NCBI GenBank assembly: GCA_902522865.1
Contig: CABYXC010000001.1
Coordinates: 1 to 64,000 of the forward strand
Length of the DNA stretch: 64,000 nt
From: an uncultured Alphaproteobacteria bacterium
Lineage (GTDB): Bacteria; Pseudomonadota; Alphaproteobacteria; HIMB59; GCA-002718135
Direction: 5' to 3'
The notes below the pieces were generated by a model that worked only from the letters and a program-made list of their open reading frames with translations, was not told where the DNA came from and searched no databases. Positions 1 through 9,581 of this stretch are shown here, piece after piece. The translations under genes and the position numbers were made by a program. Position 1 is the first letter of the stretch. Each line of letters starts with the position of its first letter.

Positions 1-348
1 TGATTCTAATCCATTATCTTTAAATGCATTAATAGCAACCTCAGTATGAGTTTTAGTAAAAAATTTGAAATTTTTTTTAATAAGTGTATTTTTTATTTCT
101 TCAAAATTATATATCGAACCATCAAGCATAATTGAATATCTGTTATCAACTGACATAGGTTCTCTTGCTATATCTCTTGTGTCTGTAGAAAGCATATTAA
201 CATGTGATAGAAAAGTATTTTCAAATTCAAGAAAACCTTGTTTATATGGCCCTCTATGTCTTATTAATTTTCCCATATCATAGATGGTTTTTTTGAAGTA
301 ATTTTTATTTTTTGAGTTTTTTAAAATTATTCCAGCAATGCCCGACAT
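1..348 (-). CDS. Asparagine synthetase-like protein with a degenerate glutaminase domain (3' end beyond window)
   Basis: Reading frame of 116 codons open from an ATG at 348 to the window edge. It aligns without gaps over residues 25-116 to the class II glutaminase domain of the intact asnB at 7695, sharing the blocks RHRGP, PMSVD, IYN and HTEVAINAF. The N-terminus reads MSGIAGII where active enzymes have MCGI, so the nucleophile Cys2 is Ser. Other glutaminase positions are also changed: the Arg of the RLSIID block is Asn51, the Asn of YNGEIYN is Asp76, and the Asp of SDTEV is His101. Family knowledge: relatives with a dead glutaminase domain, such as beta-lactam synthetase, use only the ATP-dependent C-terminal half. 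That half lies outside the window, so the reaction cannot be named. Divergent from yggT. Confidence 0.85.
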   Translation of the reverse strand, partial: MSGIAGIILKNSKNKNYFKKTIYDMGKLIRHRGPYKQGFLEFENTFLSHVNMLSTDTRDIAREPMSVDNRYSIMLDGSIYNFEEIKNTLIKKNFKFFTKTHTEVAINAFKDNGLES

Positions 349-464: not shown

Positions 465-746
465 ATGAATTCTTTATTATATTTAATTATTCAAATCATA
501 AACTTATTTCAGTTTGTTCTTATAGTTTATATAATTTTAACTTGGTTGGTAAACTTTAATGTAATTAATACCGGAAATAGACTTGTTTACAGTATCCTAG
601 ATACTTTATATCGATTATGTGAACCAAGTTTAAATTTTGTTAGAAGATATTTGCCCAATTTCGGAGCTATAGATTTATCTCCTATAGTTGTTTATCTAGG
701 CTTGTGGTTTATTAAAAGTCTACTTGTTGAGTATTGGCCTAGATAA
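465..746 (+). CDS. yggT: YggT family membrane protein
   Basis: A 93-residue protein with two hydrophobic segments (about residues 3-27 and 68-87). Between them is the family signature region: a Leu-rich loop, then CEPSLNFVRRYLPNFGAIDLSP. Length is normal for the single-domain YggT family, inner-membrane proteins of unclear role sometimes linked to osmotic protection or cell division. The stop is two bases before folD, so the two are probably co-transcribed. The promoter should lie in the 116-bp gap shared with the divergent asparagine-synthetase-like gene. Confidence 0.85.
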   Translation: MNSLLYLIIQIINLFQFVLIVYIILTWLVNFNVINTGNRLVYSILDTLYRLCEPSLNFVRRYLPNFGAIDLSPIVVYLGLWFIKSLLVEYWPR

Positions 747-748
747 TT

Positions 749-1627
749 ATGCCTCATATATTAGATGGAAGAAAAGTTTCCCAAAATTTAAAAGATAATT
801 TAAAAATTGAAATTGAAAATATAAAATATAAATTTAACAAAGTTCCTGGCTTAGCTGTTGTACAAGTAGGAAATGTTGCTGCAAGCAGTGTATATGTTAA
901 GGCTAAAACAAAAGCCGCAAAAGAAGTTGGTATTAATGTTTTTGATTATCATTTAGAAGAAGCTACTAATCAAAGTGAACTTATTAATTTAATTAATAAG
1001 CTAAATAATAATAAAGATGTAGATGGTATCCTTGTTCAATTACCCTTGCCACATACTATAAATGAAGAAGTAGTTTTAAATAGTATTTTGCCTGAAAAAG
1101 ATGCTGATGGGTTTCATCCCCTAAATGTTGGTAAACTTTCAATTAGTCCAAAAAATGATGAACATTTAATGATACCATGTACACCGTATGGTTGTCTGTT
1201 ACTTTTGCGAGAGCTTAATATTAATTTAACTGGTAAAAATGCTGTTGTAATTGGTAGATCAAATATAGTTGGTAAACCTATGGCACAATTATTACTAAAG
1301 GAGTCTTGCACTGTTACAACAGTTCATTCAAAAACTATAAATATTGAAAGTATTTGCAAGAATGCTGATATTTTAATAGTAGCAATTGGCAAACCTGAAT
1401 TTGTTGATAAAGATTGGGTTAAAAAAGGCGCTATTGTTATTGATGTTGGTATCAATAGGATCAAAATAAATGAAGAGAAATCAAAATTAGTAGGTGACGT
1501 TTTATTTAGTGATGTAGAACATAAGGTAAGTGCAATTTCTCCAGTGCCTGGAGGAGTGGGACCAATGACGATTGCATGTTTGTTGAGAAATACAACTGCT
1601 GCTTTTAAATTAAAGTATAATAATTAA
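749..1627 (+). CDS. folD: Bifunctional methylenetetrahydrofolate dehydrogenase/cyclohydrolase
   Basis: A 292-residue cytosolic enzyme that interconverts 5,10-methylene-, methenyl- and 10-formyl-tetrahydrofolate using NADP, supplying one-carbon units to purine synthesis. The catalytic segment YVKAK (Tyr49, Lys53) is present, followed by DGILVQLPLP, the nucleotide-binding segment GRSNIVGKPMA and the C-terminal SPVPGGVGPMT signature. Length is normal. It sits two bases after yggT, and its last four bases overlap the end of the convergent glycosyltransferase gene. Confidence 0.97.
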   Translation: MPHILDGRKVSQNLKDNLKIEIENIKYKFNKVPGLAVVQVGNVAASSVYVKAKTKAAKEVGINVFDYHLEEATNQSELINLINKLNNNKDVDGILVQLPLPHTINEEVVLNSILPEKDADGFHPLNVGKLSISPKNDEHLMIPCTPYGCLLLLRELNINLTGKNAVVIGRSNIVGKPMAQLLLKESCTVTTVHSKTINIESICKNADILIVAIGKPEFVDKDWVKKGAIVIDVGINRIKINEEKSKLVGDVLFSDVEHKVSAISPVPGGVGPMTIACLLRNTTAAFKLKYNN

Positions 1628-5399: not shown

Positions 5400-5780
5400 G
5401 TGTCTAAAATTCACGTAGATTTCATTAGAGGTAAAGAGGTTGAGAGTAGTCACCAAGTTAAAGTATTAGTAACGAATGCTAATGGTAAAACTTTATTGTC
5501 TACAAATAATGATAATGAATTTTTTTTCCCACGATCATCAATTAAAATATTTCAAGCTATTCCTTTTGCAATGTCAAACGCAATCAAAAATTATAGATTA
5601 AGCAATAAACAGATAGCCTTAGCCTGTGCTTCACACAAAGGAGAAAAATTTCATATAAGAGAACTAGAAAAATGGATTTCAAAAATAAACTTAAAAAAAA
5701 CTAGTCTACAGTGTGGTATTCATGGGCCATTAGATAAAGAGGCTTTTGAAAAAATAATACATTCTAGAAAAAAAATTTAA
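5400..5780 (+). pseudogene. Asparaginase (PF06089-type), N-terminal part before a frameshift
   Basis: GTG-start frame of 126 codons. It carries the N-terminal half of the thermolabile bacterial L-asparaginase family: FIRGKEVESSH, the FPRSSIKIFQAIPF block, ASHKGEKFH and QCGIHGPLDKEA. The frame ends at TAA 5778-5780 right after an A8 tract (5768-5775). Dropping one A joins it in frame to the downstream part. The full protein would be about 331 residues, close to the family length, and would hydrolyse asparagine to aspartate and ammonia. The break may be a real mutation, a read error in a homopolymer, or a site rescued by slippage. Confidence 0.8.
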
Positions 5781-6396
5781 TGAACTACATAATAATTGTG
5801 CTGGCAAACATTTAGGAATGTTAACAAGTTGTTTAGTCAATAATCATAAAATTACAAACTATCTTGATTATAATCACACACATCAAAAAAATATTAGAAA
5901 AATTTTAAATAAATTTACAGGAACTAAAATATCAAAGAAAAATTTCTCTCTAGATGGTTGTAGTGCTCCACAATATTCATTTAAAATTAAATCTATATCA
6001 AAGGCATTAAATAATTTGATTAAAAGTTATAAAAATAATTATCATTATACTGAACAAGTAAGAATCTTGGTTGATTCAGTTTTAGAAAATCCTGAATTCA
6101 TTGGAGGAACTGCAAGTTTTGACACAAAAGTAATTAAAGCTTCAAAAGGAAAAATGTTTTGTAAAAGTGGAGCTGAAGGAGTTTTTTTATTTGTTGATAT
6201 TCAGAAAGAAATTAGTGGTGTAATTAAAATTACAGATGGAAATGAAAGAGCTATTCCAATTACTATAATAAATATTTTAAAAAATTTAAAAATTATGAAT
6301 AGGGAAGAGTTAAAAAATTTAGAAAAAAAAGAAAAATTTGAGCTACAAAATCATGCAGGTAAAAAAATTGGGCGTGTCAGATTTATAATGCAATGA
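5776..6396 (+). pseudogene. Asparaginase (PF06089-type), C-terminal part after a frameshift
   Basis: Continuation of the asparaginase in the next frame. Read from 5776 it gives FNELHNNCAGKHLGMLTSC, containing the family NNCxGKHxGML motif, which lies upstream of the first ATG at 5818. This shows that the ATG is not the natural start. Further motifs are DGCSAPQYSF, GGTASFDT and KSGAEGVF. The end overlaps the 3' end of the convergent DUF3429 gene by 14 bases. All motifs after the break look conserved, which favours a recent or tolerated frameshift over old decay. Confidence 0.8.
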
Positions 6397-6819: not shown

Positions 6820-7695
6820 ATGATTGAGCAAAATATCATTTTAGAAATTGAAAAACATTTAGATAATAAAAAAATTATAGATAGCAAGTTATTATCAGAT
6901 TCTTTTGGTATTAATTGCTTAAGAATTGTCACAAGTGATAGAAAAGAGTTTATTGTCAAATATTATTACAAAAATAATGATAAATTTAATGCTATAAAAT
7001 CTGAAACAGATAATCTTCTTTTTTTTAATAGACAAAAGTTTAGTCAGTTCCCAAGTATTATTAACTATAATGATAATTTATTAATAATGTCATTCATAAA
7101 TAACGATGATGATCAACCAAACCAAACAAATGGTGATTTATTAAATTCTATAATTTCTCTTCACTCCAAAAAAAGTGAAGATTACGGTTTTAGTTTTGAC
7201 ACACAAATTGGTGGTTTGAGACAGATTAATTCAAGTTCTAAAAATTGGCTAGAGTTCTATAGAGATAAAAGACTAAATTACATATTTGACTTAGTTAACA
7301 AAAACCAACCTATGGATGAAACTATTAACACTAAAATTGATTTATTAATTAAAAAGATAGATAATTTTATACCTAACAAACCAATATCATCTCTATTACA
7401 TGGTGACTTATGGGAAGGTAACATACTTTTTAAAAATAAAAAATTTGTCGGATTTATTGATCCAGGATCCTTTTATGGTCATAATGAGCTAGAATTATCT
7501 TATTTGAGATGGTTTGACCCCAAATTTATTGACGAAAATTTTTTAGATAAATACAATGACCACATCAAGATCGATAAGTATTACTTAGAATATGAACCAA
7601 TCTATCAATTATATTATTCACTATTAAATGTTTATTTATGGGATAGAAGCTATATTGAAGATGTACGTAAACTGCTGGAAAAAATTAAAATATAA
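6820..7695 (+). CDS. Fructosamine kinase family protein
   Basis: A 291-residue protein of the fructosamine/ketosamine-3-kinase family, which phosphorylates sugar adducts on proteins or amino acids and so starts deglycation. The core is SSLLHGDLWEGNILFKNKKF followed by GFIDPGSFYGHNELELSYL, matching the catalytic HGDLW-x-GN and the metal-binding DPx block, and the C-terminal YQLYYSLLNVYLW helix. The usual DPA reads DPG. A conserved GGLRQ segment precedes these. The last base overlaps the asnB start, which suggests translational coupling; substrate not known. Confidence 0.85.
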   Translation: MIEQNIILEIEKHLDNKKIIDSKLLSDSFGINCLRIVTSDRKEFIVKYYYKNNDKFNAIKSETDNLLFFNRQKFSQFPSIINYNDNLLIMSFINNDDDQPNQTNGDLLNSIISLHSKKSEDYGFSFDTQIGGLRQINSSSKNWLEFYRDKRLNYIFDLVNKNQPMDETINTKIDLLIKKIDNFIPNKPISSLLHGDLWEGNILFKNKKFVGFIDPGSFYGHNELELSYLRWFDPKFIDENFLDKYNDHIKIDKYYLEYEPIYQLYYSLLNVYLWDRSYIEDVRKLLEKIKI

Positions 7696-9581
7696 TGTGT
7701 GGAATTAATGGAATAATATTTAAAACATCTAAGACTGACGTTTCAAAAATACTAAAAATGAACGCACTTTTAGATCATAGAGGGCCAGACGATAGTGGAT
7801 TTATTAATCATAAGAATCTTTTACTTGGTCATACTAGGTTATCTATTATTGATATATCAAATCTTGGCTCTCAACCAATGTCTGTAGATGGAAGATATTG
7901 GATTATTTATAATGGAGAGATTTATAATTATAAAACTTTAAGAGAAGAGCTAATACTAAAGAAATATAAATTCTATTCAAATTCAGACACAGAGGTTGTT
8001 CTTAATGCATATAAAGAGTGGGGGGCAGAGTCATTTCAAAAGTTTAATGGAGAATGGTCTTTTGCAATACTAGATAAAAAAAATAATGAGGTAATAATTT
8101 GTAGGGATGGTGTTGGATATAAACCTTGTTATATATTTGATAATAATAATTTTTTTGCATTCAGTTCTGAAATAAAAGCGTTTTACGCATTAGAAAATAA
8201 AATTGAGTTTGATAACAATAATCTAGGTATAAATTCTACTACTCTAAATAATTGTTCTAAGACAATATTTAATAATATTAATCAACTTACTCAAGGAAGA
8301 TATTTAAACATAAATTTAAATAATTTAGAGAAAAAAATATTTAGATGGGACTATCCACTTAAAAATTTACCAAAAATCAATTCAGGATTTAGAGAGAATG
8401 TTAATGATTATTTTGATCTTTTATATGAATCTACGAAATTAAGATTGAAGAGCGATGTTAAAACTGGAACTTCACTTAGTGGCGGTTTGGATTCCTCCTC
8501 TATTTTCACATTGATGAATTTAATACAAAAAAATGAAAAATTAGGTGAAGATGATTTAGATTTGAACCCAATTATAATGAATTATGAGGAAATGAAAACT
8601 AAAGAGGACGCAGTTAAATTATCAAAAAAATTTAAAAGAAATTACCAAATAGTTAATTTTAAAAAGATGACAGCTGATAAAACAATGGATCTTGTTTCAT
8701 CTCTAGAAGTGGTAGAAGAGTTTTTTATTCAATTTGAACTTTATAAAAGACAAAAAGAAAAAGGTATTAAAGTTAGTCTTGATGGTCATGGAGCTGATGA
8801 ATTTTTGGGGTATCCAAATTGGATACCAGAATTATCTGTAGATATTTACAATAGTATTGCTAATAATTTTAAAATAATAAATAAATTTGGAAAAACTCAA
8901 AATATCAATAAATTTAAAAGATTATTTGGCGTAGGTGAAAGGGAAATTGTTCCAATATCTTTTAAAGTAACTCCAGACCTAAATTATGGCTTTAAAAACT
9001 ATTTAAATACAGGTAATTTTGATGGTGGTTATCAAATTATTAATGACGATTTAGATGATTTAGAAAATTTTCCTTACGAGTTATGTTTTACTTATTTGAT
9101 GTCTTATTGTGGCTGGTTTCAGTTTTTCTTAAATAAGTGGGACAGAGCATCAATGTCAAATTCGGTTGAAGTTAGAATGCCTTTTTTAGATAATGATGTA
9201 AGATTATTTGGATTAGCATTAAGTAGCTCTAATAAGTTGAAAAATGGTTTTACAAAATCGGTTTTAAGAGAAGCTTTTAAAGAATATTTTCCTAAAAGTA
9301 TGTATACGCAACAATTTAAACAGGGCCTAACCATACAAAATGTTGATTATAATAAAGATACTATAAATTTGATTTCTGAAATAATTAATGAAGATGAGTT
9401 TAAAGCAAATAATGTTATCAATTTTAAAAACATTAATGATGATTTTACTAATAAACAAAATTTAGATAAAATATGGTTGCTTTGTAAATATTTCTTGATG
9501 ATAAAAGGTTTCAAAAATAGATATGATTCTATTAATATTGATTTGAAAGCTAGAGAGAAAAGTAATTTATTAAATTCTTAA
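7695..9581 (+). CDS. asnB: Asparagine synthase (glutamine-hydrolysing)
   Basis: A 628-residue two-domain enzyme making asparagine or a related amide. The N-terminal class II glutaminase starts MCGINGII with Cys2 and keeps HRGPDDSG, HTRLSIID (Arg48), YNGEIYN (Asn73) and SDTEV (Asp98). The synthetase domain has the P-loop TSLSGGLDSSSIF and the DGHGADEFLGYP block. Start codon overlaps the stop of the kinase-like gene. The divergence of the synthetase half and the neighbourhood leave open that the amide acceptor is a glycan or peptide precursor and not free aspartate. Confidence 0.93.
   Translation: MCGINGIIFKTSKTDVSKILKMNALLDHRGPDDSGFINHKNLLLGHTRLSIIDISNLGSQPMSVDGRYWIIYNGEIYNYKTLREELILKKYKFYSNSDTEVVLNAYKEWGAESFQKFNGEWSFAILDKKNNEVIICRDGVGYKPCYIFDNNNFFAFSSEIKAFYALENKIEFDNNNLGINSTTLNNCSKTIFNNINQLTQGRYLNINLNNLEKKIFRWDYPLKNLPKINSGFRENVNDYFDLLYESTKLRLKSDVKTGTSLSGGLDSSSIFTLMNLIQKNEKLGEDDLDLNPIIMNYEEMKTKEDAVKLSKKFKRNYQIVNFKKMTADKTMDLVSSLEVVEEFFIQFELYKRQKEKGIKVSLDGHGADEFLGYPNWIPELSVDIYNSIANNFKIINKFGKTQNINKFKRLFGVGEREIVPISFKVTPDLNYGFKNYLNTGNFDGGYQIINDDLDDLENFPYELCFTYLMSYCGWFQFFLNKWDRASMSNSVEVRMPFLDNDVRLFGLALSSSNKLKNGFTKSVLREAFKEYFPKSMYTQQFKQGLTIQNVDYNKDTINLISEIINEDEFKANNVINFKNINDDFTNKQNLDKIWLLCKYFLMIKGFKNRYDSINIDLKAREKSNLLNS

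Follow-up and report, generated by a model that had tools for sequence, protein, structure and literature searches.

Glutaminase-dead homologues of the asparagine synthetase AsnB are already a known kind of protein. The beta-lactam and carbapenam synthetases are AsnB homologues of this sort: their N-terminal domain is without the cysteine and they make no use of glutamine. The lasso peptide isopeptide cyclase (NF033535) is a further AsnB homologue. In E. coli asparagine synthetase B (1CT9) the side chains of R49, N74, E76 and D98 hydrogen-bond glutamine (PMC11296641), and both the AsnB-like PesC and canonical asparagine synthetases take ammonia instead of glutamine (PMC13060819). The locus described here combines an AsnB-like gene with a lost glutaminase active site and an intact paralogue. 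It lies in a window, the whole stretch of DNA analysed, which comprises bases 1-64000 of a contig (C1) from an assembly of 35 contigs (73% complete; 27.7% G+C). Low G+C, genome sizes and a division of the order into two families would suit the marine order HIMB59 with its family GCA-002718135 (PMC10734472). The window begins at base 1 of this contig and hence its edge is a real assembly end. The relevant features are:

1 to 348, minus strand: 5′ part (116 codons) of the glutaminase-dead AsnB-like gene, cut at the contig end (GATase_7, E 1.3e-9)
465 to 746, plus strand: yggT, bounding a variable site on the right and oriented divergently to the AsnB-like gene (Pfam YGGT, 4e-18; synteny in 59 relatives)
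749 to 1627, plus strand: folD-like gene, the anchor for locating the site in relatives (about 90% identity in near relatives)
6820 to 7695, plus strand: fructosamine-kinase-like gene, in the genus the conserved partner of the intact AsnB-like paralogue, whose start it overlaps
7695 to 9581, plus strand: intact AsnB-like paralogue (type A), with full GATase_7 and Asn_synthase domains and Cys2 present

The reading frame at 1-348 runs from MSGIAGII to NGLES, is open up to the contig edge and encodes the N-terminal 116 residues of an AsnB-type class II amidotransferase: it scores 37.8 to 39.1 bits against the GATase_7 profile, above the cut-off of 25, and its class II glutaminase domain can be aligned with E. 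coli asparagine synthetase B over the visible part (E 5e-5). Unlike the latter, it lacks both the nucleophile and the glutamine pocket. In the HMMER alignment of the fragment to 1CT9, by which the positions were mapped, the N-terminal cysteine (Cys1) of a glutamine-hydrolysing AsnB is a serine, and the pocket residues Arg49, Asn74, Glu76 and Asp98 are Asn, Asp, Ser and His, respectively. A sequence-only reading of the window had noted the MSGIAGII terminus in place of MCGI and the residues Asn51, Asp76 and His101 against the intact asnB; the codons bear this out, both against that gene (7695-9581) and against a relative at the same site in another genome, G079 (Ser2 TCG vs TGC, Asn51 AAT vs AGA, Asp76 GAT vs AAT, His101 CAT vs GAT). 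In addition, position 78 (Glu in YNGEIYN) has Ser and position 35 (Asp in HRGPD) has Tyr. The statement that all visible catalytic residues are replaced holds for the nucleophile and the four pocket side chains, but not for the oxyanion glycine G75, the sole residue of the known glutaminase chemistry that the fragment keeps. A correct alternative start restoring the cysteine had been named as a refutation: translation from the TTG that lies upstream in frame, at 369, yields MLIIIKLMSG, which has none. It is conceivable that the N-terminal serine serves as a substitute nucleophile, though the glutamine pocket is gone as well.

The losses are concentrated at the active site. Eight of the 23 near-invariant columns are lost, namely all five catalytic ones and three of the 18 others (those matching Asp33, Leu50 and Gln60), and the chance of all five catalytic columns falling among the eight is small (p = 0.0017). 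The structural blocks, in contrast, are kept, as had been claimed from the letters: 15 of the 18 non-catalytic near-invariant columns are retained against 43 of 93 ordinary columns (p = 0.003).

As to the named families, a search of the PDB returned only 1CT9 and 7YLZ and revealed no affinity of the fragment to beta-lactam or carbapenam synthetases, let alone a closer one than to AsnB; in trees built without BLS and CarA sequences it nests in the AsnB-like clade of its genus. The new use on the model of beta-lactam synthetase that the sequence-only reading suggested would therefore be speculative. The match to the lasso cyclase model is weak (E 3e-5; score 22.7, where the whole-protein cut-off is 525), and generic AsnB models score far better on the fragment.

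The history of the gene can be read from the yggT site, i.e., the space from a solute-binding-protein gene to yggT, which we compared across 59 genomes of the order. In 47 of these nothing lies there (about 90-190 bp between the two genes), ten have a gene for a 219-residue methyltransferase-like protein, and one (G062) has an FAD-dependent oxidoreductase. G079 carries an intact AsnB-like gene of 636 residues, oriented as in the window, together with a sulfotransferase-like gene. In the genus this is a small variable insertion site whose cargo may be nothing, methyltransferase-like, an FAD oxidoreductase, or AsnB-like plus sulfotransferase-like (L063, L070, L081). The window genome carries two AsnB-like genes of one clade, the intact type A copy by the fructosamine-kinase-like gene and the altered one at the yggT site; G079 is without a counterpart of the paralogue at 7695. 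The fragment is about 50% identical, without gaps over its 116 residues, to the G079 protein (L063:6391-8301), which is of the same clade, site and orientation, and about 50% identical over the same length to a same-clade protein of G124 (L064:5537-7438). Both of these have Cys1, Arg49, Asn74, Glu76 and Asp98 intact, whereas the window copy has none of the five. In a tree of the glutaminase domain the fragment is sister to the G079 copy (ultrafast bootstrap 96, SH-aLRT 87), and the two group with the G124 copy (98/99); a larger full-length tree, built by a quick method, recovers the same group of three (SH-aLRT 100). The end branch of the fragment, at 1.02, is seven-fold longer than that of G079 (0.14) and compares with 0.37 for G124.

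The dead form is known from one sequence, of 116 residues. Among the best-match loci from searches of 162 genomes in the order and 385 in the class, it is the sole protein whose entire pocket is replaced; a scan of the genome collection gave only three distant AsnB proteins (31-36%), and no relatives of the fragment were found in the viral contigs and phages searched. A Cys-independent pattern scan of the gathered loci recovered only one other homologue with Ser at position 1, from the alphaproteobacterial genome G237 (L107; L156:1330-3216). This protein begins with MSGIFG, adjoins an aminotransferase-like gene and keeps Arg49, Asn74, Glu76 and Asp98 despite the change of Cys1 to Ser, and is hence a milder version of the change seen in the fragment.

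The synthetase half lies beyond the contig end. Searches of the genome with PF00733, GATase_7, the full G079 protein and the neighbour genes did not find the remainder: of Asn_synthase domains the paralogue at 7695-9581 has one and contig C5 the other, and PF00733 gave no third match. The family 3 solute-binding-protein gene that usually neighbours the site was likewise not found in the assembly. The genes that follow it in relatives, however, are the leftmost ones of another contig (C2), the nearest being cut after 63 residues. C2 thus starts across the site from C1; accordingly, the two contigs flank one gap, which contains the remainder of the AsnB-like gene and should measure about 2.5 kb unless it holds something else as well. 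The sister protein of G079 has the SGGIDSS loop in its synthetase half.

Taken from sequence comparison, the reading we prefer, and to which we give about an even chance, is that the fragment gene is the positional counterpart of the intact amidotransferase, with its glutaminase function lost, and that the remainder works as a glutamine-independent ligase. The ancestor at the site would have been an intact glutamine-dependent AsnB-like amidotransferase, as in G079. In the window lineage the N-terminal domain shed both its nucleophile and the entire glutamine pocket but, within the visible 116 residues, kept the residues that define the fold; it would persist as a scaffold. The C-terminal ATP-pyrophosphatase half may persist and have no need of glutamine: it would use ATP to activate a carboxylate, which it would then couple to free ammonia or another amine. 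Glutamine-dependent work would fall to the intact paralogue (7695-9581). In other words, the gene is probably a redundant copy that has lost the glutamine-splitting half-reaction, a known kind of change. A more tentative extension, which we consider possible at about one chance in four, is that in this streamlined marine alphaproteobacterium an AsnB-like enzyme independently gave rise to an ATP-dependent ligase that needs no glutamine and makes a new amide or lactam.

Whereas a glutamine-independent ligase is probable, a decaying copy is less likely, with roughly one chance in three by our estimate: given type A, the copy at the yggT site would have lost constraint, and the loss of the active site would be the first sign of this. 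The intact paralogue renders the fragment gene potentially dispensable, so that redundancy is a live alternative; the seven-fold acceleration of the branch speaks for it too, as does the emptiness of the site in most relatives, which implies that its contents can be dispensed with. Against early decay stand the preferential retention of the structural columns and the intact frame and length: the fragment shows no indel relative to the G079 copy over 116 codons, and its codon-position GC (0.33, 0.29, 0.16) is still gene-like. In a simulation with an assumed frameshift rate we let the G079 sequence drift neutrally until its identity had fallen to the observed 50%. With all of the divergence neutral, 0.01-0.07% of runs kept an open frame without frameshift; with neutrality limited to the final 20 points of identity the share was 4-7%, and with the G124 sequence as the start it was about 8%. 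For decay that set in only late on the branch the simulation gives P of about 0.05 to 0.25. The contention that the clean frame argues against decay hence stands in part: long neutral decay is unlikely, whereas over 116 codons the frame is only a moderate argument against late decay, which is allowed.

A non-catalytic role, e.g., as partner subunit of the intact paralogue, is a doubtful though still conceivable reason for the protein's persistence, at perhaps one chance in ten; the retention of fold residues alongside a lost active site would suit such a role, and the possible partner is encoded in the same genome. Less probable still is an artefact, either sequencing errors or a chimeric contig end: the contig does break off at this very point, and an apparent homopolymer frameshift affects the asparaginase gene (5400-6396), but three of the five catalytic replacements are at least two bases from the G079 codon, and the same neighbour relation, site, orientation and sister position of the intact G079 copy argue against a chimeric join, which we reject, and mark the intact state as ancestral.

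If the missing half is intact, the glutamine-independent ligase would represent an evolutionary snapshot of an AsnB-like enzyme shedding its use of glutamine, comprising the intact same-site copy in the sister genome, the dead-glutaminase copy here and the intact paralogue in the window genome; the loss would then be traceable and the change in the synthetase site readable. If the gene is decaying, it would exemplify ordinary gene turnover at a variable site.

Two further observations concern the neighbourhood. The L-asparaginase II gene mentioned above occupies two reading frames, whereas relatives have a single one of about 331 residues. Where the frame breaks, a poly-A run is one base longer than in G089 and G109, which reflects either an error of assembly or amplification or a true frameshift. 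The type A paralogue passes TIGR01536 (327 bits, cut-off 267). The fragment's clade mostly has the motif DGHGADE (DGLGPDE in G079), whereas most other gathered AsnB-like proteins have SGDGGDE or similar; the overlap of a fructosamine-kinase-like gene with an AsnB-like gene bearing DGHGADE, in place of the usual SGxGxDE, is widespread in the genus (6820-9581 in the window, and equivalents).
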